A stretch of 53,567 nucleotides of DNA. Origin: Calothrix anomala FACHB-343 (GTDB lineage Bacteria; Cyanobacteriota; Cyanobacteriia; Cyanobacteriales; Nostocaceae). Under the pieces are notes generated by a model that made no database searches, had not been told where the DNA came from, and saw nothing but the letters and a program-made list of their open reading frames with translations. A program made the position numbers and the translations under genes. The stretch spans positions 1 through 53,567 of the forward strand of contig NZ_JACJQG010000071.1 of the NCBI RefSeq assembly GCF_014696435.1, given 5' to 3'. Shown piece after piece: positions 3,212 to 23,026 of this stretch. Numbering within the stretch: the stretch's first letter is position 1; the number at the start of each line of letters is the position of its first letter.

Positions 3212-3240
3212 TGTATTTCTGGGGTGTGGGAGGATATGCC
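3212..3240 (-). promoter_or_regulatory. Shared upstream element, site A (caspase-like gene)
   Basis: Read towards the caspase-like gene this is GGCATATCCT, 10 bases, AGAAATACA. The same two blocks with 10-11 bp spacing occur before five other start regions in the first 23 kb. The site ends 32 bases before the ATG at 3179, consistent with a promoter or operator. The recognising factor is unknown. Confidence 0.6.
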
Positions 3241-3306
3241 AGTTTTGACCTCTTTATATGTAAAGATAAAGGCTTTAAAATTTCCTATTTCGTTGCCAAG
3301 GGTAGG

Positions 3307-6267
3307 TCATTGAGATTCACCGATGAGGGTAAAAGCTGCCCATTGTGATGGATTTGAATATTTTTTCTTGGTGTCGAGCATGGCTTTTCTTAATGCTGTG
3401 GCTTTGTCCATTTTTTGTTGCAAATTTTGATAAAACTCGGTCATTAAAAATGCCGTTGAACCATCATCAACTGACCAGAGTGAGACGATGACACTGGGTA
3501 CTCCTGCACTGATAAAAGAGCGAGATAAACCGATAACACCATCCCCTGTAATTCTTCCTCTACCTGTATCGCAAGCGCTGAGAACTACTAAATTGGCTTT
3601 GAGTTTCAAGCCGAAAATTTCTTCTGCGGTTAGGAGTCCATCGCGTTTTTGCTCTTCTTTGCTGAGGGGGGATGAGAGGGAATTAGGATTTTCTGGTGTT
3701 AGAGCAATGGAACTATCTAAACCGCGAATATCATCAAATAATCCGTGGGTTGCAAAGTGAATAATTTGTGCTTTGGGTAAGCGTTGGACTACGGTGGATT
3801 CTGTGGCTTGTTTACCAATTAAGGGTTGAATTTTAAATAAATTAGCAATGGCTTTTGCTTCTTTTTCTGCTTCAGGTAAAGGTGATAATTTTTGTTGCTT
3901 GTCGCCAATTTTTATTGTTATTTTGGGCATGATGGGATTACCCACTATCAGCATATTATTAGTCTGTAGGGGTTGGTTGCCAAGTTTTTGATATTGTTTT
4001 TTAGTTAAATCTAAAACTTGAATTGATGGAGATGTGAGGATAGTATGTTTATCAATCAGGTACTTGCCGTTTTCGTCTTGCAATGCCGGGAAGGGAACTA
4101 GAAATAATGAGCTTTGCGGGATGAATACTACTTTATCGGTTTCTTTTGTGGGTAATAGATCAGCGATGGGTGAGATTAATATTTCGTGGAGTTTTTGTAA
4201 GCGTTTTTTCTGGGTTTCTGGATTTAGTGGAGGTGGGTTTTCCATTTTTGCACCTCTGACACCAATTGATTGGCGGCTTATTTGAACTAATTGTGCTAAA
4301 TTTGTCTTTTCTTTTTGCCATAATGGTTTGAGGTCTGCTTTACGGAATATGACTTCACCCGTGGGTTTGATGACCCAGATATATAGTGCTGATTCTTCGG
4401 TTTCTTCTTTACCTGCTATTTTGAAATCGTCATAAATAATGGAATATTGAATGAGGGTTGCATTTTGGAATTTGGCAGTTTGTTTAATCTCGGTAATATT
4501 GGGTGGTGTTGGGAATTGTTCCTTAGAGTTATTTGATAAACGGAAAGTAAGTAGTTCTGCAAATGCGCGTCCCCGCCCGCGTTCGGATATTTCTAAAGCA
4601 GCATCAATTTTATTTTGGGCAATCAGGACTTTTTGTAAAGTATTGTAAGTATTTCGTTGGGTTTCAAAAATTGAGACTTTCTCGTTATCCTTTAAGTCTC
4701 GACCTCGGAGAGATTCGTACACTTTTATGCCTTGAATTAAAGTATTCTCAGCTAAAGCAAGTTTTCCTTGTTTGTAGTAAGCATATCCTAGATTATTTAG
4801 TGAAATACCCTCTCCCCTAAGGTCTTTAATTTCTCGTGCAATTGCTAACGTTTGTTGATAGTAGTCAATCGCTTTGGAGTAGTCTCCCAAGGCATCATAG
4901 GCATTACCAAGATTCCCCAGTGATTGACTCTCACCTAAACGATCTTTAATTTCCTGTGCGATCGCCAAGCTTTGTTTATAGTGGTCAATCGCTTTGGGGT
5001 AGTCTCCCAACAAAGAGTAAGTGTTCCCGATATTTCCCAGTGATTGGCTCTCACCGAAACGGTCTTTAATTTCCTGTGCGATCGCCAACCTTTGTTGATG
5101 GTAGTCAATGGCTTTTGGGTAGTCTCCCAAGGATAAGTAGGCAATACCTAGATTTCCCAGTGCTATACTCTCACCTAGACGGTCTTTAATATCCCGTGCA
5201 ATCGCCAAGCTTTGTTGATGGTAGTCAATGGCTTTTGGGTAGTCTCCTAGAAAATAGTAAGCGTTACCGAGACCTCTCAGTGCAACACCCTCACCTTGAC
5301 GGTATTTAATTTTTCGTGCAATTAACAAGCTTTGTTGCTGGTATTCAATGGCTTTGGAGTAATCTCCCAAGGCACGGTAGACAATACCTAGATTTCCCAG
5401 TGAAATACCCTCACTTTGACGGTCTTGAATTTCCCGTGCGATTGCCAAACTTTGTTGATGGTAGTCAATCGCTTTAGGATAATCTCCCAAGGAATAGTAG
5501 GCAAGACCGAGACCTCCTAGTGATTGACCCTCACTTTGACGGTCTTGAATTTCCCGCGCGATTGCCAAGCTTTGTTGATGGTAGTTAATGGCTTTGGGGT
5601 AGTCTCCTAAGAAATAGTAGGCGTTAGCGAGACCTCCTAGTGCCTTATCCTCACCATTAGGGTCTTGAATTTCCCGAAATATAGCCAAGCTTTGTTGATG
5701 GTAGTCAATGGCTTTGGAGTAGTCTCCTAAGGAATAGTAGGCAAAACCGATATTTCCCAGTGAGTTACCCTCTCCCCTACGGTCTTTAATTTCTCGTTTA
5801 ATAGCCAAGCTTTGTTGATGGTAGTCAATGGCTTTGGAGTAGTCTCCCAAGGATAAATAGGCAACACCTAGATTTCCCAGTGATTGACCCTCACCTAAAC
5901 GGTCTTTTATTTCTCGTGCGATCGCCAACCTTTGTTGTTGGTAGTCAATGGCTTTGGGGTAGTCTCCCAAGGATAAGTAGGCAATACCTAGATTTCCCAG
6001 TGTATTACCCTCACCTTTACGGTCGTTTATTTCCCTGTAAATTTGTAGTGCTTGTTGCCAAGACTGCAATGCTGCTGTAAATTGACTGGTTTGAAACTGC
6101 TGATTACCCAGTTCCAACAATCTATCAGCTTCCGCTTTCCGTGCATCCACCGTCTGCGCCAAAACCCGCGATTCAGTAAACACCATCGACAAACTAGAAC
6201 CCAAGGAAGTCGAAACAACAGCCAACAGACAAACCAACACACCTAACCCAATTTTGCAGGAACGCAT
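3307..6267 (-). CDS. Exported TPR-CHAT protein, 986 aa
   Basis: The N-terminal signal peptide (MRSCKIGLGVLVCLLAVV) suggests export. Twelve 40-residue TPR units follow, roughly residues 45-540, mostly of the form LGNLG-AY-LGDYPKAIDYHQQSLAIA-EIKDR. The C-terminal CHAT (caspase-HetF-associated) peptidase domain carries His841 in FATHG and Cys899 in LSACDTG, so it looks catalytically intact. TPR units normally bind a protein ligand and CHAT cuts a substrate; both partners are unknown here. I chose the ATG at 6267 over the upstream ATGs at 6273 and 6294, because GGGGG lies 7 bases upstream and this start clears the preceding CHAT remnant. It is probably transcribed together with the TPR gene upstream, since no shared element lies directly before it. 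Confidence 0.9.
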   Translation of the reverse strand: MRSCKIGLGVLVCLLAVVSTSLGSSLSMVFTESRVLAQTVDARKAEADRLLELGNQQFQTSQFTAALQSWQQALQIYREINDRKGEGNTLGNLGIAYLSLGDYPKAIDYQQQRLAIAREIKDRLGEGQSLGNLGVAYLSLGDYSKAIDYHQQSLAIKREIKDRRGEGNSLGNIGFAYYSLGDYSKAIDYHQQSLAIFREIQDPNGEDKALGGLANAYYFLGDYPKAINYHQQSLAIAREIQDRQSEGQSLGGLGLAYYSLGDYPKAIDYHQQSLAIAREIQDRQSEGISLGNLGIVYRALGDYSKAIEYQQQSLLIARKIKYRQGEGVALRGLGNAYYFLGDYPKAIDYHQQSLAIARDIKDRLGESIALGNLGIAYLSLGDYPKAIDYHQQRLAIAQEIKDRFGESQSLGNIGNTYSLLGDYPKAIDHYKQSLAIAQEIKDRLGESQSLGNLGNAYDALGDYSKAIDYYQQTLAIAREIKDLRGEGISLNNLGYAYYKQGKLALAENTLIQGIKVYESLRGRDLKDNEKVSIFETQRNTYNTLQKVLIAQNKIDAALEISERGRGRAFAELLTFRLSNNSKEQFPTPPNITEIKQTAKFQNATLIQYSIIYDDFKIAGKEETEESALYIWVIKPTGEVIFRKADLKPLWQKEKTNLAQLVQISRQSIGVRGAKMENPPPLNPETQKKRLQKLHEILISPIADLLPTKETDKVVFIPQSSLFLVPFPALQDENGKYLIDKHTILTSPSIQVLDLTKKQYQKLGNQPLQTNNMLIVGNPIMPKITIKIGDKQQKLSPLPEAEKEAKAIANLFKIQPLIGKQATESTVVQRLPKAQIIHFATHGLFDDIRGLDSSIALTPENPNSLSSPLSKEEQKRDGLLTAEEIFGLKLKANLVVLSACDTGRGRITGDGVIGLSRSFISAGVPSVIVSLWSVDDGSTAFLMTEFYQNLQQKMDKATALRKAMLDTKKKYSNPSQWAAFTLIGESQ
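4801..6040 (-). repeat. 120-bp tandem repeat array inside the TPR region
   Basis: About ten near-identical 120-bp units are obvious as DNA. Phrases such as TAGTCAATGGCTTTGG and GGTAGTCTCC recur at exact 120-base spacing. Each unit is one TPR repeat of the CHAT protein. The high DNA identity implies recent duplication or ongoing gene conversion. Confidence 0.85.
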
Positions 6268-6280
6268 AGCCATACCCCCA

Positions 6281-6478
6281 CTACAACAAACCAACCAACG
6301 TAAAACCAGCCCAATCGCGAGGATTTGGATACTTTTTCATCGTTTCCAGCATCGCTTGACGTAACGCACCCGCTTTATCCGTATTTCTGCTTAAATTACC
6401 ATAAAACTCAGTTATCACAAATGCGAGTGCTACAGATTCCCCTCCAAACAGATGGGAATCTGGGCTTAATATTTGCAT
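6281..6478 (-). pseudogene. CHAT-domain C-terminal remnant
   Basis: A 65-codon frame encodes only the last part of a CHAT domain: ITEFYGNL, TDKAGALRQAML and WAGFTLVG. These match the C-termini of both neighbouring TPR-CHAT proteins (FYQQLQQNPDKAKALRQAML, WAAFTLIG). The catalytic His and Cys motifs are missing. Its ATG overlaps the stop of the upstream TPR gene by one base (TAATG). The simplest reading is that an ancestral TPR-CHAT gene lost its middle, leaving the small TPR gene plus this tail. Confidence 0.7.
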
Positions 6479-7137
6479 TAACTAATTTGCTTTAGCAGGT
6501 CAAGTGCTGTCTTCATATTCTCAGTTTTACCCTCTCTTTTATACAGTTCCGCAGCTTGTTTTAAATCTGCAACTGCTCCCTGTTTATTACCTAAATTCCC
6601 CTGAGCAATACCACGCCAAAAATAAGCATGGGCGAAGTCTGAATCTAATTTTATTGCTTGATTAAAATCTGCTAGTGACTGTTCGTAGTCTTTTAAGTAT
6701 AAGTAAGCATAACCTCTACCAAAGTATGAGTAATGGGAATTTGGCTCAATCCGAATTGCTTGATTAAAATCATCAACTGCGGGCTGATACTTTTCTAGTT
6801 GGATATATGCTAAACCTCGCAGTATATAAGCTCCATAATTATCTTTATATTGTTGTAAAATTTGATTACAATTCTCAATTACTTGGTCATAATTGCCTTT
6901 TTCTAGATACTCTGCCGCCTGATTTAATAAGGACTCAATATTGTTACTATTTCCAGAGTTGTATGTATGTGTAAATTGAGGGGTGATTGAGGGTAGCTGT
7001 AGTTGTTGCTTGAGTTGAGTTTGAGTTTGAGCAATCAGGATTGGTTCTGGTTGATTGAGATTTTCAGCCAAAACTTTGGGACTAGAAAGAATCGCACCTA
7101 ATACAGCCATGCCAAGTGCTAGTGTGAATTTTTTCAT
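6478..7137 (-). CDS. Small exported TPR protein, 219 aa
   Basis: The N-terminus MKKFTLALGMAVLGAILSS is a signal peptide. About four TPR-like units follow (residues 65-210), for example YGAYILRGLAYIQLEKYQPA and AHAYFWRGIAQGNLGNKQGA, with the classical 34-residue spacing and not the 40-residue type of its neighbours. The ATG at 7137 has AGGAAG about 6 bases upstream. The frame stays open to 7350, but that extension covers an intergenic region containing site B and gives an unlikely protein. The role is probably protein binding in the periplasm or at the membrane. The gene may be the N-terminal survivor of a former TPR-CHAT gene. Confidence 0.8.
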   Translation of the reverse strand: MKKFTLALGMAVLGAILSSPKVLAENLNQPEPILIAQTQTQLKQQLQLPSITPQFTHTYNSGNSNNIESLLNQAAEYLEKGNYDQVIENCNQILQQYKDNYGAYILRGLAYIQLEKYQPAVDDFNQAIRIEPNSHYSYFGRGYAYLYLKDYEQSLADFNQAIKLDSDFAHAYFWRGIAQGNLGNKQGAVADLKQAAELYKREGKTENMKTALDLLKQIS

Positions 7138-7263: not shown

Positions 7264-7292
7264 TGTATTTCTGGGAGAAAGGAGGATATGCC
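7264..7292 (-). promoter_or_regulatory. Shared upstream element, site B (small TPR gene)
   Basis: Read towards the small TPR gene this is GGCATATCCT, 10 bases, AGAAATACA, identical in both blocks to site A although the spacer differs. It lies 126 bases before the ATG at 7137, in the 196-bp gap after the 904-aa TPR-CHAT gene. Confidence 0.58.
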
Positions 7293-7333: not shown

Positions 7334-10048
7334 TTATTCTGCGTTGCCAATTAGGGTGAAAGCCGCCCAGTGTATGGGATGGTGGTGTTTTTTCATGGTG
7401 CTTAACATTGCTTGACGTAGGGCTTTGGCTTTGTCAGGATTTTGCTGTAATTGCTGGTAAAATTCCACCATTAAATCTGAGGTGGAACTATCATCAACCG
7501 CCCACAGGGAAACAATTACACTCTCTGCTCCCGCAGTCAATAAGGAACGGGATAATCCCACGACTCCATCACCTGTGATTTCCCCGCCACCAGTATCGCA
7601 AGCACTTAAAACTACTAAGTCTGCGTTCAAATTTAAGTTAATTATTTCGGTTGTTTTCAGCAATCCTTCGTTGACACCAGGAGTATCGGCAGCAAGTGCG
7701 ATCGCACCTGGTATTCTTTCCCCAAAGCCATAAAGTAATCCATGTGTGGCTAAATGAATTATTTTGGCGGTTGATATTTTTTGCAGTACGGCAGATTTTG
7801 TTGCTTGTTTACCGATCAGAGGTTGAGTGTTGAGGATGGGGGCTATTTTATTCGCTTCTTTTTCTGTACCGGGTAAAGGACGTTGTTGTACGGGGGGAAT
7901 TCCTGTAATTGGCATAATTGGGTTCCCTACTAGTAATGTATCTCCCGGTTGCAGAGATGCAATATTTAATGTTTCTGTGTTTTTACGGGTGTAGTCTAAT
8001 ACCTGAATTGCTGGAGCAGTGAGGATGGTATGCTTTTCAATTAGGTATTTGTTGTTTGCATCCTTGAGCGCTGGGAAGGGAACGAGAAATAGGGATTCAT
8101 GGGGGATAAAAATTACGCGATCGCCTGGGTTTTTAGGAAGATGCTTGGCGATCGGTGTAATTAGGAGTTCGTGGAGTTGTTGTAAGTGTTTCTTTTGAGT
8201 TTCTGGACTTGGTAGGGGTGGGTTTTCAATTTCAGCACCACGTTGTTTTATAACACCAATAGATTGACGACTGGTTTCTACTAAATTTTTTAGAGGTGTT
8301 TTGAGGGATTTTAAATCTACTTGTTTAAATGCAATTTCTCCTGTGGGTTTAACTACCCAAATATAAAGTTTTGCATCCTTGGCTAAGAAATATTCCACAA
8401 GTGTAGCTTTTTGCTGTTGAGCAATTTTTTTAATTTGAGCAATGGATGGGATTGTGTTTAAAGATTCGTTACTTCTGGTTGATTTTGAGGTGATTAAGTC
8501 GATAATAGCTCTGGCTCTACCGCGTTCAGATATTTCTAATGCTTGTTCTATTTTGTTTTGGGCGATTAAAGCTTTTTGTAACCAGCGATAGGTAGTGGCT
8601 TGTTGTTGAAATATTGATATTTTTTGCTCATCATTTAATGTCGCCCGTAGTGACTCCCAAATTTTAATAGCAGCATATAGAGGTTTTTCCGCTTCGGAGT
8701 AATTACCTTGATCTATATAATTTACTCCAATATTATTGAGAGTTCCACCTTCGCCAGTATTATCACGAATTTGTTTACGAATAGGTAATGCTTGTTGATA
8801 ATAATCTAATGCCTTTTGGTACTTTTTTTGATTGTTATAAACTACTCCAATGTTGTTTAAATAAGTACCTTCACCTTCTTTATCACCAATTTGTTTAGCA
8901 ATGTTGAATGCTTGGTTACAATAATTTAATGCCTTTTGATACTCTCCTCTCCTGCGGTAAACTTCTCCAATATTACCAAGAGTAGTTTCTTCACCTGCTT
9001 TATCACCAATTTGTCTAGAAATAGTTAATGCTTGTTGATAATTATCTAATGCTTTTTGGTATTCTTCCTGATTGTCGTAGGCTACCCCAATATTACTGAT
9101 AATTATACCCTGTAGTCTTTTATCAAGAATTTGTCGAGCAATAGTTACAGCTTGCTGATAATTATCTAAGGCTCTTTTATATTGTCCCAAACTATTATAA
9201 ACCAACCCAATATTGTTAATCGTTGTACCTTCAAGTTCCTTGTCTTCCACTTGTCGAGCAACGGTTAAAGCTTGTTGATAATAATCTAATGCTTTTTGAT
9301 ACTGCCCCAGCCTGCGATAAACTAAACCAATATTATTAATAGTTGTACCTTCGCCAGCTTTATCATCAATTTGTCGAGCAATGATTAAGGCTTGCTGATA
9401 ATAATCTAATGCTTTTTGATACTGCCCTAGATTGTCATAAATTTTCCCGATATTGTGGAGAGTTGTACCTTCGCCAAATTTATCATCAATTTGTCGAGAA
9501 ATGGTTAAGGCTTGTTGATAATAATCTAATGCTTTTTGGTATTCTCCCAGATTATCGTAAACTTGTCCTATGTTGTCTAAAATTCTACCTTCGCCGAATT
9601 TATCATCGATTTGTCGAGCGATACTTAAAGCTTGTTGATAATAATCTAGTGCCTGTTTGTACTCACCCAGATTGTCGTAAACTGAACCAATATTGCTGAA
9701 AATTCTACTTTCAATTTCTTTATCACTAATTTCTCTACTAATTACTAGCGCTTTCTCGAATAACTCTAGGGCTTCTTTATATTTACCTTGGCGAAATAAT
9801 TTAAGTCCCTGTTTATTTAGTTTCCTTGATTCTTCTAGTCGCTGTTGCTGTGTCTGTCCTTGTGCTACTAATCTACTACTTATCCCACCCTCTACTTCCC
9901 TCATCTGCGGAGATGCTAAACCAACGGGAAACATCAGCGAAATTAACACGGTAACAAATATAGTCCGATAAACAAAGATTGATAACTTATTTTTGGCTTT
10001 ATAAAGCCTATTACCTCGGCGGTTAAAGCAATTCAGACTTTTACGCAT
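7334..10048 (-). CDS. TPR-CHAT protein, 904 aa
   Basis: A basic N-terminus is followed by a hydrophobic segment (SIFVYRTIFVTVLISLMFP), so it is exported or membrane-anchored. Ten TPR units of 40 residues follow (about 65-480), such as NNIGLVYRRLGQYQKALDYY. The C-terminal CHAT domain has His769 in LATHG and Cys817 in LSACDTG, so it is predicted to be active. The 120-bp periodicity is also visible in the DNA from about 8700 to 9700. The upstream element at 10082-10110 ends 33 bases before the ATG. Between the TPRs and the catalytic motifs there is the usual IAQNKIEQALEISERGRARA linker, as in the 986-aa paralogue. Confidence 0.9.
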   Translation of the reverse strand: MRKSLNCFNRRGNRLYKAKNKLSIFVYRTIFVTVLISLMFPVGLASPQMREVEGGISSRLVAQGQTQQQRLEESRKLNKQGLKLFRQGKYKEALELFEKALVISREISDKEIESRIFSNIGSVYDNLGEYKQALDYYQQALSIARQIDDKFGEGRILDNIGQVYDNLGEYQKALDYYQQALTISRQIDDKFGEGTTLHNIGKIYDNLGQYQKALDYYQQALIIARQIDDKAGEGTTINNIGLVYRRLGQYQKALDYYQQALTVARQVEDKELEGTTINNIGLVYNSLGQYKRALDNYQQAVTIARQILDKRLQGIIISNIGVAYDNQEEYQKALDNYQQALTISRQIGDKAGEETTLGNIGEVYRRRGEYQKALNYCNQAFNIAKQIGDKEGEGTYLNNIGVVYNNQKKYQKALDYYQQALPIRKQIRDNTGEGGTLNNIGVNYIDQGNYSEAEKPLYAAIKIWESLRATLNDEQKISIFQQQATTYRWLQKALIAQNKIEQALEISERGRARAIIDLITSKSTRSNESLNTIPSIAQIKKIAQQQKATLVEYFLAKDAKLYIWVVKPTGEIAFKQVDLKSLKTPLKNLVETSRQSIGVIKQRGAEIENPPLPSPETQKKHLQQLHELLITPIAKHLPKNPGDRVIFIPHESLFLVPFPALKDANNKYLIEKHTILTAPAIQVLDYTRKNTETLNIASLQPGDTLLVGNPIMPITGIPPVQQRPLPGTEKEANKIAPILNTQPLIGKQATKSAVLQKISTAKIIHLATHGLLYGFGERIPGAIALAADTPGVNEGLLKTTEIINLNLNADLVVLSACDTGGGEITGDGVVGLSRSLLTAGAESVIVSLWAVDDSSTSDLMVEFYQQLQQNPDKAKALRQAMLSTMKKHHHPIHWAAFTLIGNAE

Positions 10049-10081: not shown

Positions 10082-10110
10082 TGTATTTCTCAACCACCAG
10101 AGGTTATGCT
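10082..10110 (-). promoter_or_regulatory. Shared upstream element, site E (904-aa TPR-CHAT gene)
   Basis: Read towards the gene this is AGCATAACCT, 10 bases, AGAAATACA, with the same block spacing as sites A and B. It is located 33 bases before the ATG at 10048, nearly the same distance as site A from its gene. Confidence 0.58.
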
Positions 10111-10207: not shown

Positions 10208-10261
10208 TCATCCATCCAACAGTAGCGATACATGGTCAGTATCTAGCAACCAAAGGCTCAT
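10208..10261 (-). pseudogene. 17-codon stub of a VapC-like PIN toxin
   Basis: The ATG at 10261 overlaps the antitoxin stop (ATGA), the usual arrangement of a toxin-antitoxin pair. It opens with MSLWLLDTDHVSLLLDG and then meets TGA. The LLDTDHVSLL segment is the start of a PIN ribonuclease, including the first acidic metal ligand (LLDTD). I found no continuation of a PIN domain in any frame of the roughly 160 bases before the next gene. The toxin is therefore almost certainly inactive. Confidence 0.65.
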
Positions 10262-10746: not shown

Positions 10747-11421
10747 TTAATTCGGTTTACAAAAATCCTTAACAATCTCTTCCCGGATTTTGACTAACTC
10801 TGGTGAAGGTTTGTCCACCGAGTAAGCTTGCTGCAAAGCATCTGAGCGCAATGGCGGTTTTTGTGCTAAAAAATACTCCGCTTTTGCAAACGCTATCCCC
10901 TCAGCACTTGTTCCCTTAGCTTTTTCTTGCTGTTCCAAATTCTGTAAATCATTGGTAATGCGCTGTCTTTGTTGGGGTTCCATGATTTTAAACGCAATAT
11001 TTCCCGCCCAAGAATTCTCAATTGCTACTGACCAATGGTATTGTTGAGCGGGTAGCAATGGTTTCCCACTGTAGGTTGCATAAAGCTGTGCGATTTGGAT
11101 ATTGTCAGTTGCACTCGCATCGGGAATACCCTGAGAAAGTCCGATTTTTTTCAGATTCCCTTGCCAAATTATAAACGGGCGATCGCTCCAAATTGTTTCA
11201 CCACGATCTGGTGCAGCAATACAAACACCATTAATGATTGGACGTGGCGCTCCTTTACCCCTTCCCACTGGAGGGTTCCTCCGAAAAAGATTCCACCAAG
11301 AAAAAGACGGCTGTGCTGGACGCTTTTCTGCGTGGGATACTTGATTTGGCAAAACAGGGAGCAATGTAGCAGTTATTGCAGATATCAACAAGCTGGGTAA
11401 AATCCAGTTGTAATTATTCAT
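10747..11421 (-). CDS. DUF928-like exported protein, 224 aa
   Basis: Signal-like N-terminus (WILPSLLISAITATLLPVLP), then a basic stretch (RGKGAPRP), a lone Cys in NGVCIAAPDRGET, a beta-rich middle (YHWSVAIEN) and a long charged helical C-terminus. This layout matches DUF928 proteins, which I know as frequent partners of CHASE2-CHAT genes in cyanobacteria; the assignment is from memory. The start overlaps the stop of the CHASE2 gene by 8 bases (ATGAATAA), and a GGAGAAGGG ribosome site lies inside the upstream gene, so translation is probably coupled. Function unknown. Confidence 0.55.
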   Translation of the reverse strand: MNNYNWILPSLLISAITATLLPVLPNQVSHAEKRPAQPSFSWWNLFRRNPPVGRGKGAPRPIINGVCIAAPDRGETIWSDRPFIIWQGNLKKIGLSQGIPDASATDNIQIAQLYATYSGKPLLPAQQYHWSVAIENSWAGNIAFKIMEPQQRQRITNDLQNLEQQEKAKGTSAEGIAFAKAEYFLAQKPPLRSDALQQAYSVDKPSPELVKIREEIVKDFCKPN

Positions 11422-14020: not shown

Positions 14021-17000
14021 TTATAAACCGTTACCAATTAAAATAAATGGTGCCCAGTAGTAGGGGTGGGAGTAACTACTTTTTCGCTGTTCATTTCTGG
14101 GTAATGCACCTGGTTCTAAGTAAGCACCACGTTTATCACCATTTTCTACGGTAGAATTATCACCTTTGAGCATACTTAATTGTGCTTGACGTAATGCTTC
14201 AGATTTCGTCATTTTGCCAGTAGCAAGATTTTTATAAAATAACTGCATTAGTTGAGATGTACTAGGATCATCAACTTTCCACAGAGAAGCCATTACCGAT
14301 TTAGCACCTCGATTCATAAACTCGTAAGCAAGGGTGTTAATTTCTACACCGTCCTGAGCTTCATCTTGATTTGTAGAAGTAGCCAGGGCTGTTTGACAAG
14401 CTGACAAAACAACCAAATGAATATCCTTTAATCCTGTCAAGCTAGAAATCATATCCGGTGTTAATGGTGTACCAGTTCCCATTAAGATATAAGATTGTTC
14501 TGGAGTTGTTGAGTCAAATACACCGTGAGTAGCAAGGTGAAGAATTTTGTATTTGTTCAAATTATCTCGCAATGTTTCAAAATTGAAGATTTTATTTAAA
14601 TACTCTTTTCCTGGATAAATTCCTTGCTTATCGTTGGTATTTTCACGAACAATAGCGTCTAATTCCTTGGGTACATTTAATAAAGCACGGAAACTCTTAT
14701 TAGAATTAGGATTTGGATCGGGAGCAGGTTCCGATAATCCCATTGCTAAAAGGGGAGTATTTTGAATATTAGTAGGTAGCTTATCTTGCTCTTCAATCTT
14801 TTCTGTAGTGACATTATGAATTGTGTATTTTTCGATTAGGTATTGTTTCCCATCATGAAGTGCGCTCATGGGAATATAGCGAATTTCTCTATGTAGCGCA
14901 AAAATCAGATTTTTGACCTGATTATCCGTTAATTCCTTCTCTAAAGGTTTAATTAGCCATCTATAAAGTTGTTGGCTGATAGGCTGTATTTCGGCAATAT
15001 CTTTTACACTACAGTAATAACCTTCTGGTTCACATTTTCCGATTAACTCACGAAATTTTTTGACTGTATTTCTTAATTCCTTCCTTGATACTTGGACTTT
15101 CTCTGTTTTGACTAGCCCGTTTTGTCCATATACTTGTAACCACAATTCATTTTCTAGTACCAAGGGATAAATCATAACGCTGTTTGCGCGTGTTTCCTTT
15201 GCTTGGGCTTCAACAATTGCTTGGGCTTTTGCGAATCCTTTCGGATTAAAGAATTGTTCATCTTTAGCACGATTATCCTTAATTTCTTCTTCAATTTTCT
15301 TCAATTCTTTATTTACTTGTTGAATTGAAGCACTGAGCTTATTATTTAGCTCAGTGCGTTGACTGCAATTAGTTCTTTCGCATTCACTTATCTGAGTTGC
15401 TAAAGCAAGTGTTATTTTACCTTGTTCAGTAATCTTTGCTTCTGTGGGAGTAAGAGGGATATTTAATTTATCTTCTGCGACACTTCTAGAACCTCTTGCT
15501 TCTCGAATTTCTTGTTCTTCGATGAGTAACCGGATTTGGAATGCTTCTTTATATGCTCCTTGATCATTTAATAACCCTGCGAGTTGAGCATAGATATCCG
15601 ATACCTTCATTTGAGCGAAATCAATAGTTGAATTTAAGAAAGAGTTTTGTAATTCTTTGGGTAAGCCTTCAATACCACCACGAATTTCTTCTAGCCTATT
15701 CACAGATTTCTTATAATTTGCAATAGCAATATTAGGTTGATTTAAATCCTGATAAACCCGTCCTAATCCAGCATAAATACCTGCGTCTGCACCTTTTACT
15801 TGATTATCTGTTTTAATTGCTAAAGCTTGTTGATAAGCAACTATTGCTTGTTCTGTTCTGCCAAACTTACGATGTAAACTACCAATATTACTGAAAGCTA
15901 ACTTTTCCCAAACACTATTTTGGTTTTTTCTCGCAAAGTCCAAAAATGCTTGAGCAGATTCCATCGCTTTTGCATCATCTTTAGATTCACCATAGCCAGC
16001 ACTTAGAATTAATTTTGCTAAAGCTTCTAAGCGTGGTTCTTTAATATCTCTGAAAATAGCCAACGCTTTCGTTGCTGAATCTATCGTTTTATTCACTTCT
16101 CCTTGATAAAAGTAATTACTAGCTAGAGCTAATAAAAGTGTACCTTCACCCTGACGATTGTTGAATTGCTTCACTATCGTCAATGCTTGTTCATAATACT
16201 TAGCACTATTTTTGTAGTCTCCTAGTTTGCTATAAATCTCTCCCAAAAAATATAAGGTATCAACTTGAATGATAGGACTTTTGAGTTGCTCTGCAATTTT
16301 TAAACTTTGCTTTGTTAAATCTAAAGCTTGTCCATAATTATTCAGGGAACTGTAAATACTACCTAATGCTGTCAAAGCGTGGACTTCCAATAGTGGATTT
16401 TTTAGCTCATGGGCTGTTGTTAAACCTTGTTCAACTAATTGTTTACCTTTAGTATATTGACCAGTTAATCCGTATGCTTTACCTACAACAATTAAAACTT
16501 CTGCTTTTCTAACTGGATTATTTAACTTTTGAATTTTACTAAGTAAAGGTTCACCAAGAGCCGTCACTTGTTGATACTGTCCTGTGGCTTCATAAATAGT
16601 AGCTAAAGCCGCTATAGACTCGATTTCTAAGGTAAAATTATTAATTTGACGTGAAATACTTATTGCTTGCTCTGCTGTTTTAATACCCTTGTCATATTCT
16701 CCTTGGAATTTATATACTTTGCTGAGATATACTAAAATACCTGGTTCAAACAATAAATTTGACTGTTTTCTTGTTAAAGCTAAAGCTTGCTGTGCTGTCT
16801 CAAATGCTTTATTTGTATCACCTACATAAATGTAATTTTCAATAAGATTTAGCAAAACAATAATTTCATTCCCAACCATTTTGCTTTGTACTATTTGCAG
16901 ATTTTGTTGTGCTATCTCTAGAGATTTAATAAAGTTACCCTGGCTAAAGTAAATATCGCGTAAGTTATTTAAAGCATCTTCTTCCAGAGAGGGACTTTCT

Positions 17001-19498
17001 ACTCGCTTGGCTATAGCCAAAAGTTGCTGTGCAGATTCTAGGGCAGAAGTGTGATTTCCTTGTTGTGTGTAAGTATTACTGAGTTGTTTTAATGCTTGTG
17101 CTTCAACTTTAGGTTCTTTGATTTGTTGAGCGATAGTTAAGGCTTGCTTACATATATCGATTGCTTTAGGAAAATCTTTGAAGTCATCAGTATATAATTT
17201 AGCTAAGTCAATTAAAGCTTCTGCATAATATTCTTTTATACCTGATGCCTGAGCTTTTTTGACAGCTTGTTGGGCAAAATCTAAAGCTTGATTAGATTTA
17301 CCAAAGAGACTATAACTTGTTTGTAGACCTCCCAAAGCAGAAATTTCTGCTTGGACAGCATTATCCCGAACATTGGATGGTAATTTATCAATCTTTATTT
17401 GCTGGGCTATACGTAAAGCCTCATGATATGTTGCAACTGCCTTTTCATGCTCTCCCAAAACATTATAAGTACTAGCTACAGATTTTAAAGCAAATACTTC
17501 ACCCAATAAACCATAATCTTGTTGTGATTTTGATTTTTCTTCTCTTTTTATTTCTAAATATCGTTTATCTACTTCTAATTGTTTATGATGTTCTCCTTGA
17601 TATCGATAAATGTTGGCTAAGGTTCCTAAAGCTGTTGCTTCAGTGACTAAATCGTTCAGATCGCGAGCCATTTTGGCAGCCTGTTGTAAAGTTTCAACTG
17701 CCTTTTTATTTTCACGGATAAAAGCATAAGCAGCACCTAAATCAGCCAAAGTAGATGCTTGAATTTTTGGTTTATTTAGTTCTTTTGCAAGATTAATAAC
17801 TGATGGAGCTAGTTCTATGACACGAGAATATTCTACTTTCGCTTGACTATATAATTCTCTAACAAAGAAGTCTACAGCTTTAGAATTATGCCCTGCAATA
17901 ATTTTCTGCAAAGCAGTCAGTTGCCCTTCTTTATTTTGAAGCGTCTGATAAATCCTTAATGCTTGTTGAAATAATTCAATTGCTTGATCATCTTTATCTT
18001 GAAATAAATAAGTTTGACCGATAACAATTAGAAAATTTGCTTTAAATGCGTTATCTTCAATTGCTGATAGAAGTGGTAGTGCTTCCTGATAAAATGGAAG
18101 AGCGCTGTCATACATCTTTTGGTCTTTATAAGCATCTCCAATCTCTCCTAAAATACGAATTTCTAAAGATTTATCTTTTTCCTCTCGTGCAATACCTAAT
18201 GCCTGTTTGTAGATTTTAATTGCTTGTTCGTACTGATTTTGCTGGAAGTAGATATTTCCTAATTCTCTAAGAATACCTATTTTTAGAGAATTATTTTTTA
18301 ATTCTTGTGCTAAACTAAGTGCTTTTTGATAAGTTTCAATCGCTTGTGAATATTGTTTTTGTTGAAAATAAAAATCTCCAATTACTGCCAGAATATTGGC
18401 TTCTCGTGATTTATTTTTGGCTTCTCTAGCTACTACTAATGCTTGTTCATATATTTGACTAGCTTGCTTATACTGTTTTTGAATAAAATAAACATTCCCT
18501 ATCATCTTAAGAATATCTGCTTCCTTTGATTTATCTTTGAGTTCTCTCGCTACAGCTAATGCTTGCTGATAAAATTCAATAGATTTTCCATATTCTTTTT
18601 GAACAGAGTAAGTATCACCAATATTTTCATAGCTACTAGCTTCTAATGATTTATTTTGAATTTCTCGCGCTAGTATTAATGATTTTTGCCAATAATCCAC
18701 AGCACGAACATAATCTTCCTGACTGTTATAGTGCCATCCTAGATTAAATAAAACTCTCAACTCTCCGTCTTTATTTTTGAGAGTTTTACTTATTTTTAAT
18801 GACTGTTGATATGACTCAAATTCACGTTTGTAATCACGCAAATTACTATAAACTATTCCAATTCTAATTAATGTATATGCTTCCCGATAAGTATCTTTTA
18901 CTTCTTTATGAATAGCTAAAGCTTGCTGTAAAGTTTCCAAAGCTTTAGGATATTGCTCTTGATTACTGTAAGTAAATCCAATATTACTGAGAGTTTTACC
19001 TTCACCTTCTCTATCATTAACTTGCCGACGAATTGTTAAAGCTTGTTGGAAAAATTCTAATGCCTTAGTAGCATCAAAATTTAATCTATAGCTCGTGCCG
19101 ATATTATCCAAAACTTCGCCAATTGCAGCTTTATCCCCAATTACTTTATACAGATTTACAGATTGCTGCAAAACTTCCAAAGCTTGGGTAGGTTGATTCA
19201 ATCCGTTATAAACCTCACCCAATTTATTTAAAGTCGCAGCTTCCCCTGCTTTATCCACCAATTGTCGCCGAATCTCCAACACCCGTTGATAAGTCTGCAA
19301 TGCTTTGGGATATTCCCCACGACGAAACTGCTGTACACCTTCCTCAAACAACTTATCTGCATCTGCTTTAGTATCCGAACTTGTTGCAGTTTGCGCCAAA
19401 GTATGCTTAACTATCACATCATTCGCCGCTAAACCAACACCACAAGTCAGTGAAAACACTAAACTAACTAGGGCGAAACTCTTCAAACTCTTAGACAT
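14021..19498 (-). CDS. Giant exported TPR-CHAT protein, 1825 aa
   Basis: Signal peptide MSKSLKSFALVSLVFSLTCGVGLA. About 30 degenerate 40-residue TPR units (roughly residues 45-1330) are followed by a coiled-coil-like charged stretch (about 1340-1480) and a C-terminal CHAT domain with His1658 in LATHG and Cys1701 in LSACQT. Unlike the two smaller paralogues, its repeats have diverged at DNA level, pointing to an older array. The ATG at 19498 has AGAGGAA 7 bases upstream. The shared element at 19547-19576 ends 48 bases before the start. An insert between strand and helix near residue 1720 (NQDEAQDGVEINTLAYEF) matches the HetF-type CHAT subgroup, in my reading. Substrate unknown. Confidence 0.9.
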   Translation of the reverse strand: MSKSLKSFALVSLVFSLTCGVGLAANDVIVKHTLAQTATSSDTKADADKLFEEGVQQFRRGEYPKALQTYQRVLEIRRQLVDKAGEAATLNKLGEVYNGLNQPTQALEVLQQSVNLYKVIGDKAAIGEVLDNIGTSYRLNFDATKALEFFQQALTIRRQVNDREGEGKTLSNIGFTYSNQEQYPKALETLQQALAIHKEVKDTYREAYTLIRIGIVYSNLRDYKREFESYQQSLKISKTLKNKDGELRVLFNLGWHYNSQEDYVRAVDYWQKSLILAREIQNKSLEASSYENIGDTYSVQKEYGKSIEFYQQALAVARELKDKSKEADILKMIGNVYFIQKQYKQASQIYEQALVVAREAKNKSREANILAVIGDFYFQQKQYSQAIETYQKALSLAQELKNNSLKIGILRELGNIYFQQNQYEQAIKIYKQALGIAREEKDKSLEIRILGEIGDAYKDQKMYDSALPFYQEALPLLSAIEDNAFKANFLIVIGQTYLFQDKDDQAIELFQQALRIYQTLQNKEGQLTALQKIIAGHNSKAVDFFVRELYSQAKVEYSRVIELAPSVINLAKELNKPKIQASTLADLGAAYAFIRENKKAVETLQQAAKMARDLNDLVTEATALGTLANIYRYQGEHHKQLEVDKRYLEIKREEKSKSQQDYGLLGEVFALKSVASTYNVLGEHEKAVATYHEALRIAQQIKIDKLPSNVRDNAVQAEISALGGLQTSYSLFGKSNQALDFAQQAVKKAQASGIKEYYAEALIDLAKLYTDDFKDFPKAIDICKQALTIAQQIKEPKVEAQALKQLSNTYTQQGNHTSALESAQQLLAIAKRVESPSLEEDALNNLRDIYFSQGNFIKSLEIAQQNLQIVQSKMVGNEIIVLLNLIENYIYVGDTNKAFETAQQALALTRKQSNLLFEPGILVYLSKVYKFQGEYDKGIKTAEQAISISRQINNFTLEIESIAALATIYEATGQYQQVTALGEPLLSKIQKLNNPVRKAEVLIVVGKAYGLTGQYTKGKQLVEQGLTTAHELKNPLLEVHALTALGSIYSSLNNYGQALDLTKQSLKIAEQLKSPIIQVDTLYFLGEIYSKLGDYKNSAKYYEQALTIVKQFNNRQGEGTLLLALASNYFYQGEVNKTIDSATKALAIFRDIKEPRLEALAKLILSAGYGESKDDAKAMESAQAFLDFARKNQNSVWEKLAFSNIGSLHRKFGRTEQAIVAYQQALAIKTDNQVKGADAGIYAGLGRVYQDLNQPNIAIANYKKSVNRLEEIRGGIEGLPKELQNSFLNSTIDFAQMKVSDIYAQLAGLLNDQGAYKEAFQIRLLIEEQEIREARGSRSVAEDKLNIPLTPTEAKITEQGKITLALATQISECERTNCSQRTELNNKLSASIQQVNKELKKIEEEIKDNRAKDEQFFNPKGFAKAQAIVEAQAKETRANSVMIYPLVLENELWLQVYGQNGLVKTEKVQVSRKELRNTVKKFRELIGKCEPEGYYCSVKDIAEIQPISQQLYRWLIKPLEKELTDNQVKNLIFALHREIRYIPMSALHDGKQYLIEKYTIHNVTTEKIEEQDKLPTNIQNTPLLAMGLSEPAPDPNPNSNKSFRALLNVPKELDAIVRENTNDKQGIYPGKEYLNKIFNFETLRDNLNKYKILHLATHGVFDSTTPEQSYILMGTGTPLTPDMISSLTGLKDIHLVVLSACQTALATSTNQDEAQDGVEINTLAYEFMNRGAKSVMASLWKVDDPSTSQLMQLFYKNLATGKMTKSEALRQAQLSMLKGDNSTVENGDKRGAYLEPGALPRNEQRKSSYSHPYYWAPFILIGNGL

Positions 19499-19546: not shown

Positions 19547-19576
19547 TATATTTCTGAGGACAAACCAGGTTATGCC
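19547..19576 (-). promoter_or_regulatory. Shared upstream element, site C (1825-aa TPR-CHAT gene)
   Basis: Read towards the gene this is GGCATAACCT, 11 bases, AGAAATATA. It lies 48 bases before the ATG at 19498. The A/T-rich bases after it (TATAAGAG) could act as a -10 box. The remaining gap (19577-19778) shows no other recognisable element besides one HIP1 site. Confidence 0.58.
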
Positions 19577-19778: not shown

Positions 19779-21173
19779 TCAATTCCGTAACCGCTCCAAA
19801 TTAAACGCAAAGGGTGGTAAAGTTACCTCAACGCCATCCATCAAACTCACACTCACCAAAAACTTCTCATCCCAATTACCAACCACACGGGTAAATATAT
19901 AAGAATCTTCACTCTCTGCATTTAATCCCGGTTCATCCAAAATACCTGTTTGGTCGCTGACCCTAAGTTTAATCTCAGACGGTAAACTACTTAAAGCAGG
20001 TGCGCCCAAAATTAGTAACAAACTCCACTCTGGCTTTTCTGATTCCGATAGTAAATGCCAAGTCACAGCATACAACCGCAAAGGTATCCCAGCCAAAAGT
20101 AAATCTTGATACGCACCCCGCGCTTGTACTGGAATTTCTAAACCCCTCTGTCGTAATTGAGTGGCTATTACCTCAAATTCTTCCTCTGGACTACGTATTG
20201 GGCGCATTTGGGAAGCATCTGCAAAACTGGGTAACAGCACCCAAGAAAGTGAAGCTGCTAAATCATCCAACTCATCCCATAACCAACGTCCAGCATTTAA
20301 AGCAGGTTGGGTAATTAATTTAATTACATCTTGTAGAGATTTAAAAGTAGCTGTTGATTCTGGGTTGGTACTACCCATCTCTAAATTCTTTGTAGCTGCT
20401 TGTGTTTGTAATGTGTAAACCCAATTGATCAATTCTGGACTAGTTAAAACAGCAGCAGCTTGTTCCCAAGTTAAAACTTCAGATAATTCCCGTTTCGGTG
20501 ATTGTAACTGAGGTAATAATTCCACCAACTGATTTTGTATGTTTGCTAAAATCGCACTACGATTTGTAGGAATTGCAGGTAAAGAGATTGCTGATGATTC
20601 CAAACATCGCAGATACAGCAATAGACGGTCTGGATGATTATCAAAACAGGATATTGGAAGTTGATAATTCCAATCTGACTGTAAAGAACTTATCTGTAAA
20701 TTCTCTTGTAATTCTTCATAGCTTAAAAAAGCATAAATATTCGCTGCTTCTTGTTCTTCCAACACCTCCACTAAAACATAAAAGTGGGGAATAAACTCTG
20801 GTAAATCTACAACTACTTTGGGAATATTCACCATTTCATCGCTCAAGCTACCAGTAGCAATTAAACAGATTTTAAATTCCCCTACTTGTAAATTAGCAAC
20901 GCCACTAATAAAATTTGCTAAAACAGGTTGTAGAATTGTACATTGCTCGCGATTAATAGTTAAAGATTCTGCTCTTTCTTGTAGCCATTGCTCAAAAGCT
21001 GATAAAGCTAAATAATCAAGATAAGCTTGCCATTGCTTAGATTCATTAATAATTTGATTACTGAGGATTGCAGCTTGGTCAATCTCATCAGGTGAGAGAA
21101 TAACTGCTGAAGTTGGTAAAGCATCAAAATCAAGGTAAGACATGGGAGGAAGATTACTTAATAAATTTGTCAT
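19779..21173 (-). CDS. DUF1822 family protein, 464 aa
   Basis: The N-terminal region, with ILSPDEIDQAAILSNQI, WQAYLDYLALSAFEQWLQER and VDLPEFIPHFYVLVEVLEEQ, is characteristic of the cyanobacterial DUF1822 family. The C-terminal part (KPEWSLLLILGAP onward) is a beta-rich domain. The family function is unknown, but members recur next to a sigma-like gene and CHASE2-CHAT genes. No signal peptide, so cytoplasmic. Only 9 bases separate it from the stop of the sigma-like gene upstream, so the two are surely one transcript. No clear ribosome site is present; an internal Met at residue 11 is an alternative start. Confidence 0.75.
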   Translation of the reverse strand: MTNLLSNLPPMSYLDFDALPTSAVILSPDEIDQAAILSNQIINESKQWQAYLDYLALSAFEQWLQERAESLTINREQCTILQPVLANFISGVANLQVGEFKICLIATGSLSDEMVNIPKVVVDLPEFIPHFYVLVEVLEEQEAANIYAFLSYEELQENLQISSLQSDWNYQLPISCFDNHPDRLLLYLRCLESSAISLPAIPTNRSAILANIQNQLVELLPQLQSPKRELSEVLTWEQAAAVLTSPELINWVYTLQTQAATKNLEMGSTNPESTATFKSLQDVIKLITQPALNAGRWLWDELDDLAASLSWVLLPSFADASQMRPIRSPEEEFEVIATQLRQRGLEIPVQARGAYQDLLLAGIPLRLYAVTWHLLSESEKPEWSLLLILGAPALSSLPSEIKLRVSDQTGILDEPGLNAESEDSYIFTRVVGNWDEKFLVSVSLMDGVEVTLPPFAFNLERLRN

Positions 21174-21182
21174 AATTTTGTT

Positions 21183-22601
21183 TTAATTTGTTTTTCTAGA
21201 ATGGAGATATTCACATAACCGTTCGGCGAAAATATCAGCTTTTAGGTGAGCTTTCATTGTTCTTGATTGAATCTCGGAATTTTCCAGCATTTGGCTAATT
21301 TCATTAAACAGAAAGCTTGTCAATCGCTCGTCCAGGTTTTTCAAAGCTTGGATATCAACATATACTTTAGCCTTTTCTTTGAGAGAGTCCTTTAAAATTA
21401 CCAACATTTCCTGTTGGACATCAGTCCGCAAGTCTTTTAACTTTAATAACTTGGTTACCGAATCTTGCGCTCTCAATCCCAGAAATTCAGCAATTTCTTT
21501 CATTGCCAATTTTTGACATTGAGATAGTTCCAAAGCAGTTAAAAACATCTTAGATTTATCGCCTTTTTTGCGTTCTAAATATCTGACTCGTGATTCTGTA
21601 ACTTGAGCTAAAGCCTGTTGCAAGCCAAGTTGAAATTCATGGCGATAAAACTGCAAAAATTCTGCTTGTTCGTCGTTTTCTTCTACAATATTATTAGTTT
21701 CAGGAGCCGGGATTTCTTCTATCAAAGAATTATACTTGCTTCCATACACAGCGTCTAGAGAACTTATCTGTACAGAACCACCCCGAACATAAATTCGATA
21801 CTCACGCAATTGAGCAGCTAGCTTTTGTAGTTTCTGACTCAAAACCTCAATTTCAAAAAGTTGACCTGTATGCTTTTGAATATCTTGGGCAATATCTTGT
21901 AATTGTTGAGTATCAGGCGCAATACATTTACTCCTGAGACCTTTTCTTCGTTGTTGCAGCCTTTGCAAACGGTAGACATTATGATAACTTTCTAAAATAG
22001 ATTGCGCTTCTTTAATTGCTGCGTTGCTAAAACCACTCTGCCTAAAAATATGAAATTCTTTGAAAATGCGCTCTAATTGTTTAGGTTGAGTATCATTTAG
22101 AATCGCCCAATCACTAATTAAATAAACACCGCATTCTAATAAAAATTTATTCAATTCAGGCTGTTGCTTTAATTTCATCATCGCCCAAGTAGTCAGACTA
22201 CTTTGTTGCGAATCAAAACTCTGAAGAATTTTTTGCGAGAAGCATTTATAGGAACTTAATTTTGATAATTTACCATCATCATCTAGAACATAAGGGAACA
22301 AATCCCTAGCCGTAAAATTATGGTTTTGACCAAATTTTCTTTCTAATTGCAGACATCCTTGCTCGAGAATCCAAGATAGAAAACACAGCAAACAACGTTC
22401 TGCGAACAAAGCAGTCTCGCCAGAACTATGGCGATATAAATCTAGCAATTGACGCTGGATGTCTGCATCTGGTACATCATCTGGTGTCAAATGCTCAAAT
22501 ACTTGTGCGTAAAACGACTTTGCAGCAGGTATCTGTTGAATTCTCCGGTTACCTCCCGCATCAATCCTCACCAATTGCCAATATCTTGAAGCCCCGCTCA
22601 T
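21183..22601 (-). CDS. Sigma-region-4-like DNA-binding protein, 472 aa
   Basis: 472 aa, largely helical, no membrane segment. Residues 365-405 (LELSQCQKLAMKEIAEFLGL then RAQDSVTKLLKLKDLRTDV) look like the helix-turn-helix of sigma-70 region 4. The middle (about 200-290) is Arg/Lys-rich (YRLQRLQQRRKGLRSK), as in sigma region 3-like segments. I recall similar proteins preceding DUF1822 in other cyanobacteria, sometimes labelled sigma factor; that label is not proved here. It heads an operon with DUF1822 and diverges from the HNH-like gene. Between them lie two copies, in opposite orientation, of the element found before the caspase and CHAT genes. An atypical sigma factor or activator controlling this locus, including itself, is the inferred role. 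Confidence 0.6.
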   Translation of the reverse strand: MSGASRYWQLVRIDAGGNRRIQQIPAAKSFYAQVFEHLTPDDVPDADIQRQLLDLYRHSSGETALFAERCLLCFLSWILEQGCLQLERKFGQNHNFTARDLFPYVLDDDGKLSKLSSYKCFSQKILQSFDSQQSSLTTWAMMKLKQQPELNKFLLECGVYLISDWAILNDTQPKQLERIFKEFHIFRQSGFSNAAIKEAQSILESYHNVYRLQRLQQRRKGLRSKCIAPDTQQLQDIAQDIQKHTGQLFEIEVLSQKLQKLAAQLREYRIYVRGGSVQISSLDAVYGSKYNSLIEEIPAPETNNIVEENDEQAEFLQFYRHEFQLGLQQALAQVTESRVRYLERKKGDKSKMFLTALELSQCQKLAMKEIAEFLGLRAQDSVTKLLKLKDLRTDVQQEMLVILKDSLKEKAKVYVDIQALKNLDERLTSFLFNEISQMLENSEIQSRTMKAHLKADIFAERLCEYLHSRKTN

Positions 22602-22717
22602 AAGTATTTGTATTTATTGGTCATTGTTAATTGTCACATTGCCGATGCTCCTCAACGCAAGTCCAACGATTTTTTGAGATTCCATACTGAGTACCTGATT
22701 TAACAGTTATTGGGAAA

Positions 22718-22912
22718 GGCAGAGGGCAGGAGGCAGAAGGCAGAAGGGAATTCTGCTTCCTGCCACGGCAGTTACTCCTAACCCTGCGTACCTGTCATGC
22801 CCCCTCTGCCGGCGACCTTAAGGAACAAGGGTTTAAAACTTCCAACAGGAGGGGTGTTACTCCGACTCCGATCTGAATAAAACCTTCTGCCCTCTGCCCT
22901 CTGCCTTCTGCC
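22718..22912. repeat. Intergenic inverted-repeat element (GGCAGAGGGCAG type)
   Basis: Purine-rich arm 22718-22747 and pyrimidine-rich arm 22883-22912 are inverted repeats with 26 of 30 matches. They enclose about 135 bp with no ORF. Each arm is itself built of degenerate GGCAGAAGG units. This is a miniature-repeat type common between genes in filamentous cyanobacteria. Confidence 0.6.
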
Positions 22913-22938
22913 TTTTTAAACTTGAGCCTTCATTTTTT

Positions 22939-22967
22939 AGTACTTCTGAGGAAATCGACCTTATGCA
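22939..22967 (-). promoter_or_regulatory. Shared upstream element, site D1 (sigma-like gene)
   Basis: Read towards the sigma-like gene this is TGCATAAGGT, 10 bases, AGAAGTACT, a weaker match with the same spacing. It lies 337 bases before the ATG at 22601, separated by the inverted-repeat element, which may have been inserted later between promoter and gene. Confidence 0.42.
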
Positions 22968-22997
22968 ATTTTGCACCAGTCTTGACTGCTGAAAAAT

Positions 22998-23026
22998 TGC
23001 ATATCCTCCAAATGCTGAGAAATACA
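22998..23026 (+). promoter_or_regulatory. Shared upstream element, site D2 (HNH-like gene)
   Basis: On the plus strand this is TGCATATCCT, 10 bases, AGAAATACA, matching the consensus in both blocks. It faces the divergent gene at 23421 and forms an inverted pair with D1 30 bp away. A divergent control region is the natural reading. Confidence 0.55.

Follow-up and report, generated by a model that had tools for sequence, protein, structure and literature searches.

A two-block, promoter-like element before caspase, CHAT and subtilase genes of Calothrix anomala, and a candidate sigma factor that may read it

A stretch of 53,567 nucleotides (nt) from Calothrix anomala FACHB-343 (contig NZ_JACJQG010000071.1, positions 1 to 53,567 of the forward strand; hereafter "the window") carries, between positions 3212 and 23026, six sites of a two-block element lying before genes for caspase-like, CHAT and related proteins. 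We consider it highly probable that these six sites are sigma-type promoters read by P0001, a diverged sigma factor linked to the DUF1822 family, and that P0001 thereby controls both its own gene (21183..22601, minus strand) and a set of protease genes. The sites, their geometry, their association with genes, their conservation, their co-occurrence with the sigma gene and the sigma homology of P0001 are all computed observations.

The element is real and lies far beyond chance: 100 shuffles of the window produced no match. The trimmed core GCATAWCCT-N9-12-AGAAATA occurs six times in the 9.24-Mb genome (144 contigs), five of them in the window; the reversed pattern does not occur. A relaxed core (AGARATA allowed, spacer 10-11) gives eight genome matches and none reversed, and all eight precede caspase, TPR-CHAT, TPR or subtilase-start/HNH genes, the plus-strand site of the window being counted by the subtilase start and HNH gene together. 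Outside the window, one site (C134:68878) lies 34 nt 5' of a gene for a TPR-CHAT protein of 1249 amino acids (aa), and two sites of identical sequence (C68:164512 and C134:8163) each lie 68 nt 5' of a 168-aa TPR gene. The original prediction had proposed a regulon, and this idea withstood the genome scan for random occurrence, since every relaxed-core site stands before a gene of the expected kinds. When the full pattern was allowed up to three mismatches, spacer 10 gave 12 matches versus 6 reversed and spacer 11 gave 11 versus none, so that most three-mismatch matches are noise.

The six sites lie at the positions first proposed for them, but the consensus proposed with them, GGCATAWCCT-(10-11 bases)-AGAAATACA, was too tight: two sites match it exactly, three have one mismatch and one has five. 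Five are on the minus strand. The exact matches are 3212..3240 (GGCATATCCT-N10-AGAAATACA), 32 nt 5' of the caspase gene, and 7264..7292, 5' of an exported-looking TPR gene; the latter falls within the longest, TTG-started open reading frame (ORF) of that gene, and the start used by plasmid orthologues puts it about 127 nt upstream. The site at 10082..10110 (A replaces the first G) lies 33 nt 5' of a TPR-CHAT gene, and that at 19547..19576 (AGAAATATA, spacer 11) lies 48 nt 5' of the 1825-aa TPR-CHAT gene; the coordinates thus bear out the 32-48 nt to the ATG given earlier for three of the sites (3212, 10082 and 19547). The fifth minus-strand site, 22939..22967, reads TGCATAAGGT-N10-AGAAGTACT; with its five mismatches it would fail on its own strength, and it is accepted as real because every one of the six aligned upstream regions of orthologous sigma genes, that of the window among them, has kept it. 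The remaining site, 22998..23026 (T replaces the first G), is on the plus strand, 34 nt 5' of the start of a truncated S8 subtilase gene.

The sites are conserved in related loci. The caspase gene is preceded by a site with the same core in L087, L127 and L129 also, and the 7264-type site is kept 127 nt 5' of the annotated start in L127 and L129. The core of the 10082-type site is identical in L087 and L127, L129 differing by one letter of the second block (AGACATA), and that of the 19547-type site is identical in L087, L089, L127, L128 and L129. The 22998-type site stands directly 5' of an S8 subtilase gene in L128, L129 and L088.

It had been claimed that all six sites point at a gene of this locus; the plus-strand site belongs to the subtilase start at 23061 and not demonstrably to the HNH gene. 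The subtilase remnant (MRRLIFSLIFAG, 23061..23096, plus strand) runs into unrelated sequence and a stop, and is followed by a gene for an HNH-like protein (23421..24464, plus strand; ATG at 23421, longest ORF from a TTG at 23271), which we read as having membrane-like segments. In L127, the HNH orthologue starts at the same methionine (the equivalent of 23421) and the site is missing. Given this orthologue without a site and the subtilase remnant directly behind the site in the window, the case for the HNH gene as the target is weakened, and it is no proven target. The HNH-like ORF (23271-24464) has a weak PADLOC match to ZorA (E 0.0046). A further plus-strand near-match at 4780-4809 is antisense within a TPR-CHAT ORF; it was taken as a chance product of TPR coding and is not counted. 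A similar match in L131 was judged likewise, as was a nearly letter-identical site in genome G305 (C26), which is nevertheless included among the 183 family sites considered below.

The architecture of the element was followed in 46 sequences: the window, 40 genome stretches and five plasmid stretches. A loose core, GCATA-N4-spacer-AGA-NN-TA, was found at 75 distinct sites with spacer 10, 28 with spacer 11, 17 with spacer 12 (partly the same sites in another register, some being read at both 10 and 12) and 7 with spacer 13; other spacers tested, from 3 to 24, gave 0-5 sites. The reversed core gave none at spacers 10 and 11 and at most three at any spacer. Information content over 118 distinct cores is concentrated in the two blocks, with nothing comparable beyond them and no third block; a weak T-A step lies 9-10 nt 3' of the core and, if it marks the transcript start, would set the first G of GCATA at -35. 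This fixed two-block architecture has the geometry of a -35/-10 pair and is best read as a sigma-type promoter. An unsupervised search for 5+5-mer dyads in single loci had too little sequence to work on, and returned only GCATA..AGAAA among close orthologues and TGCAT..GAGA forms in a few.

The association with particular kinds of gene also holds across these sequences. Readings with at most two mismatches number 107 versus 5 reversed, some sites again being read at both spacer 10 and spacer 12; in these readings, in the upstream scores that follow and in the comparison of site letters between lineages below, the overlapping L090 and L118 and orthologous loci are all counted. With a matrix built from 62 sites, a score of at least 10 was reached upstream of 65 of 108 caspase, CHAT, TPR, exported-TPR, S8 or HNH genes and 15 of 33 sigma genes, and upstream of 3 of 28 DUF1822, 3 of 23 CHASE2, 0 of 22 small-partner, 0 of 6 WG-repeat and 9 of 382 unclassified genes. 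On our reading of the gene maps, genes of the CHASE2, small-partner and DUF1822 kinds usually lie close behind another gene, so that they would not be expected to have a site of their own. Reversed sequence gave no match in 602 upstream regions, and the reverse-complement control gave 27, which we read as sites of divergent neighbours. Among upstream matches scoring at least 12, 58 of 92 end 20-100 nt 5' of the ORF start used, although these starts were set mechanically and some of the distances are therefore wrong. Of 40 non-redundant sites, 32 had an ORF start no more than 300 nt away and eight had none. Further kinds of gene found behind sites encode an aspartyl protease, an exo/endonuclease/phosphatase-family protein and a 2-oxoglutarate (2OG)-dependent dioxygenase, along with two response-regulator-like proteins slightly under the Pfam cut-off.

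These data also bear on the thought that the sites are alike simply because a promoter cassette was duplicated or spread with its genes, with no common control. The identical copies at C68 and C134 would fit such an origin, as would the modular make-up of the cluster, one plasmid relative of which has several transposases within it. Against it, the blocks are kept while spacers and flanks differ, and the sites stand before unrelated proteins (caspase, CHAT, subtilase, aspartyl protease, 2OG oxygenase), so that we regard it as very improbable indeed. That the element is a binding site and not a mobile repeat, as first suggested, is upheld by spacers that vary in sequence while the blocks and their spacing are fixed.

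The likeliest reader of the element is P0001, the 472-aa candidate sigma factor. Searches of P0001 against Pfam and NCBIfam returned nothing over cut-off and no Sigma70 match, and a direct profile comparison with recognised sigma factors failed (probability 0.8). Profile comparison through an intermediate family did reach sigma factors (probability 98.6, then 97.0), this family being the sigma factors that precede DUF1822 genes, with near full-length homology. By way of the intermediate family, P0001 thus appears to be homologous to known sigma factors across sigma2 and sigma4. A sequence search of Protein Data Bank chains with the sigma profile gave six weak matches, none of them a sigma factor (best E 0.036). 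Foldseek alone found nothing below E 0.001, its top two matches (E 0.37 and 0.39) being chains of transcription initiation complexes; only the structural realignment gave a consistent list. An extracytoplasmic function (ECF, group 4) sigma factor is a short protein with sigma2 and sigma4 only, and P0001, with 472 aa and further helical regions, does not fit that class. On computational grounds, cognate -35/-10 promoters stand before both the regulon and the gene of P0001 itself. Two ORFs of about 955 aa (L126 6867-9734, in G065:C1, and G147:C24:41985-43466) have their sigma homology confined to the second half, which suggests that they are fusions.

Alternatively, a conventional transcription factor could bind the element as an operator lying upstream of an ordinary promoter, P0001 being either that factor or unrelated. 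Operators too can consist of two blocks at fixed spacing, P0001 matches no Sigma70 model, and some members of its family have weak helix-turn-helix matches; yet the two blocks are no repeats of each other, the second may end as close as 22-27 nt to the ORF start and is followed by no other conserved -10, and the profile homologues of P0001 are sigma factors. We regard an operator as quite unlikely.

The motif and the sigma gene co-occur. In a sample of the order (291 genomes), 29 genomes have the relaxed motif, and the reversed control gave two sites. Counting sigma relatives at E 1e-80, 19 genomes have both, 10 the motif only, 19 the sigma gene only and 243 neither (p=1.2e-12); at E 1e-3 the figures are 22, 7, 72 and 190 (p=4.8e-7). 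Within the family (218 genomes, E 1e-60) they are 46, 12, 29 and 131 (p=1.2e-16), and the 189 family genomes outside the first sample give p=1.4e-13, all of these p values being inflated by the relatedness of the genomes. Sigma-gene genomes hold 170 of the 183 family sites (reversed control, four sites), and all 27 genomes with at least three sites have the sigma gene. Within the genus, a close copy is present in G000, G302, G304 and G305, which have 8, 6, 12 and 6 sites; the five genomes without one (G303 and G306-G309, four with only a distant relative) have none.

Several observations weigh against P0001 as the reader. No sigma gene was detected in 12 of the 58 motif-bearing family genomes, and 7 of the 29 in the order sample have no relative of it, even with the profile search included. 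In G055, one of these seven, a TPR-CHAT gene has a well-placed site in front of it, and G081 and G205 each have a site before TPR genes; G284 has two sites, 54 and 77 nt 5' of ORFs of other kinds, the G043 site is inside an opposite-strand gene, and those of G142 and G286 have no ORF start nearby. DUF1822 genes are present in six of the seven, with none in G142. The sites could then be promoters of another sigma factor, for example another DUF1822-linked one, with the P0001 gene merely travelling with the cluster; the well-placed sites in G055, G081 and G205, genomes with DUF1822 genes and no detected P0001 relative, speak for this. However, within the genus sites occur only alongside a close copy of P0001, the P0001 gene has its own variant site, and the eight sites of the genome are on C114, C68 and C134, none of them a contig that holds another of its DUF1822-linked sigma factors. 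We judge this alternative to be unlikely; real sites in genomes lacking the gene could be explained by lost plasmids, by incomplete assemblies (G205 88%, G284 76%) or by another DUF1822-linked sigma.

The letters of the sites differ among sigma lineages. Along with the L131 sigma lineage (Tolypothrix, 44% identical), 5 of 7 upstream sites have GCATACCCC, and in L106 2 of 3 have GCATAGCAA. Over nine locus groups and 33 sites, likeness within groups exceeded that in all 20,000 shuffles, in a small, hand-chosen test from which close orthologues, the sites of the sigma genes themselves and many few-site loci were excluded. This suggests that each sigma paralogue has drifted together with its promoters. 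An identical GCATACCCC-type site precedes long TPR genes on two Tolypothrix PCC 7712 plasmids (L131:22767-26501 and L128:13123-16872), and the sigma lineage to which this site type belongs is encoded on one of the two.

The sigma gene itself is preceded by the variant site at 22939..22967 (minus strand; GCATAAGGT-N10-AGAAGTA), a putative autoregulatory promoter conserved in all six aligned orthologues (the window, L127, L128, L129, L088 and L089). The same kind of variant, GCATAAGGT-N10-AGARTTA, precedes the sigma genes of L090, L091, L092, L098, L120 and L122, other variants precede those of L096, L097, L102, L104, L105, L117, L119 and L131, and the L100 sigma gene has an effector-type site. 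This kind of variant is thus not universal, and the matrix score is below 10 for 18 of the 33 sigma genes; effector and sigma promoters nevertheless tend to form two related and distinct classes. In the window, L128 and L129, an inverted-repeat insertion of about 200 bp (22715..22915 in the window, with 33-nt arms of the GGCAGAAGGCAGAGG type) parts the variant site from the sigma gene; it is absent from L127, L088 and L089. A 23-codon ORF (22614-22685, minus strand; MESQKIVGLALRSIGNVTINNDQ in the window), possibly a leader peptide, stops 12 nt short of the sigma start, and each of the six orthologues compared keeps it open.

The minus-strand genes run in the order 472-aa, DUF1822, 1825-aa TPR-CHAT, CHAT-CHASE2, small protein, TPR-CHAT, TPR, TPR-CHAT and caspase. 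Directly 3' of the sigma gene, the DUF1822 protein (19779..21173; Pfam PF08852, E 2.6e-57, and a structure model) is a possible sigma partner; the genome (G000) has 20 DUF1822 matches, several directly behind weakly recognisable sigma factors of 215-404 aa, which we read as a large, under-annotated sigma family. The 1825-aa TPR-CHAT protein (14021..19498; HLATHG and LSACQT), a 904-aa one (7334..10048; HLATHG and LSACDTG) and a third (3307..6294; HFATHG and LSACDTG) share HxATHG and LSAC motifs. No site was found for the 3307..6294 gene, which is possibly co-transcribed with the TPR gene (6478..7137, its start inferred from the 219-aa plasmid orthologues). The CHAT-CHASE2 membrane sensor-like protein (11414..13948, from a Pfam scan) was searched for the CHAT His/Cys motifs, and they were not found; its partner is the gene of a small protein with a signal-peptide-like N-terminus (10747..11421), and a 152-aa ORF with no family match (10258-10716) also lies among the genes listed. 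The caspase (Peptidase_C14) protein (912..3179; SGHG and DCCYSG) has what looks to us like a twin-arginine translocation (Tat)-like N-terminus (KRRQFIQFAGSA), and several other N-termini look export-signal-like; against the NCBIfam model caspase_w_EACC1 it scores 46.8 (cut-off 140). At the window edge, an ORF at 75-812 (plus strand) matches only the C-terminal part of the caspase domain, under cut-off (E 6.2e-4).

Close copies of P0001 (91-94%) are found in plasmid clusters of Calothrix brevissima and Aulosira laxa (both typed conjugative) and Tolypothrix PCC 7712 (mobilizable), and related clusters (50% and 44%) on plasmids of Nostoc HK-01 and Tolypothrix PCC 7712. Copies in G220 and G304 are on contigs of 6.8 and >7.3 Mb, so the cluster is not always plasmid-borne. 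Among 18 plasmid records with a P0001 relative, 16 annotate it as hypothetical and two have no annotation there.

Taken together, GCATAWCCT would act as the -35 and AGARATA(tA) as the -10, 10-11 bp apart, of promoters recognised by the 21183-22601 product, a strongly diverged DUF1822-linked sigma factor. For its own gene it would use a promoter variant that differs consistently from the rest (GCATAAGGT...AGARKTA); both in the cluster and elsewhere in the genome, it would also transcribe caspase, TPR-CHAT, subtilase and helper TPR genes, many of whose products may be exported, to go by their N-termini. Some signal, which the CHAT-CHASE2 membrane protein possibly senses, would be relayed through the DUF1822 protein or by proteolysis to release the sigma factor, and positive feedback would then turn on the whole arsenal, for defence or programmed cell death. 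We infer, then, the binding of P0001 to RNA polymerase and to the sites, autoregulation and its positive sign, the role of DUF1822, the signal, export and the outcome.

Genes for caspase-like and CHAT proteases are numerous in this genome and in its relatives; if the circuit is as proposed, these possible cell-death or defence genes would form one coordinated circuit, with a function for a protein family mostly annotated as hypothetical. With a promoter code and a candidate sigma gene in hand, common control becomes testable in Tolypothrix PCC 7712, Calothrix brevissima NIES-22 and Nostoc HK-01, whose plasmids carry the cluster or a relative, and further members of the arsenal can be sought by promoter rather than by homology. 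Evenly balanced, in our judgement, is the broader view that cyanobacteria hold a family of unrecognised, self-amplifying sigma factors, often on transmissible plasmids and with slightly shifted promoter codes, that switch on insulated, multi-replicon arsenals of caspase, CHAT and subtilase genes; if true, programmed death or immunity in bacteria would have a command layer at the level of transcription.

In the literature covered (titles and the papers cited here, most subscription-journal papers and preprints being outside its scope), we found no description of a shared element for these protease genes. A survey of cyanobacterial sigma factors by Pfam domains (PMC11119718) has neither DUF1822 nor CHAT in its main text, and DUF1822 genes are listed among strain differences in a passage of PMC9679502. 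The genome's own DUF1822-linked sigma factors of about 400 aa resemble P0001 in their position before DUF1822 and in near full-length profile homology, but they retain a weak Sigma70_r2 signal, and none of the eight motif sites is on their contigs. Like SigJ of Nostoc punctiforme, as presented in PMC6495340, P0001 would be an alternative sigma factor of a filamentous cyanobacterium with a consensus promoter drawn from comparing upstream regions. The J-box described there combines a weak -35 with an extended -10, GGGaAtacT, whereas the element here has a strong -35, GCATAWCCT, and a different -10; the 118 distinct cores show GCATA and AGA..TA, not GGGaAtacT, which rules out J-box promoters as given in that source.

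In the neighbourhoods of EACC2-caspases, according to the relevant part of PMC8195603 (eLife 2021), ECF sigma and DUF1822 genes adjoin the caspase genes, and the sigma factor is proposed to regulate many genes. The cluster here likewise has caspase genes beside a sigma factor and DUF1822; it differs from that account in having a defined promoter element, none being given in that part of the paper, in a sigma factor that the domain searches used here missed, and in including TPR-CHAT and subtilase genes. The Craspase/CASP-sigma system of Type III-E CRISPR (clustered regularly interspaced short palindromic repeats) is described in the corresponding passages of PMC10028731 as a TPR-CHAT protease that acts on a sigma-factor inhibitor, motifs for this sigma factor being present in the locus that encodes it. 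Neither Cas7-11 nor Csx30 turned up here in Pfam scans of 20 window ORFs or PADLOC runs on 8 ORFs, whose libraries may lack such models, and unlike Craspase/CASP-sigma the window has several CHAT proteins, export-signal-like N-termini and a long, diverged sigma factor beside DUF1822. Common to the two systems are a sigma factor, a protease of the TPR-CHAT type and sigma motifs upstream of several genes in the locus, and in both, as far as those passages go, positive autoregulation of the locus has been proposed.

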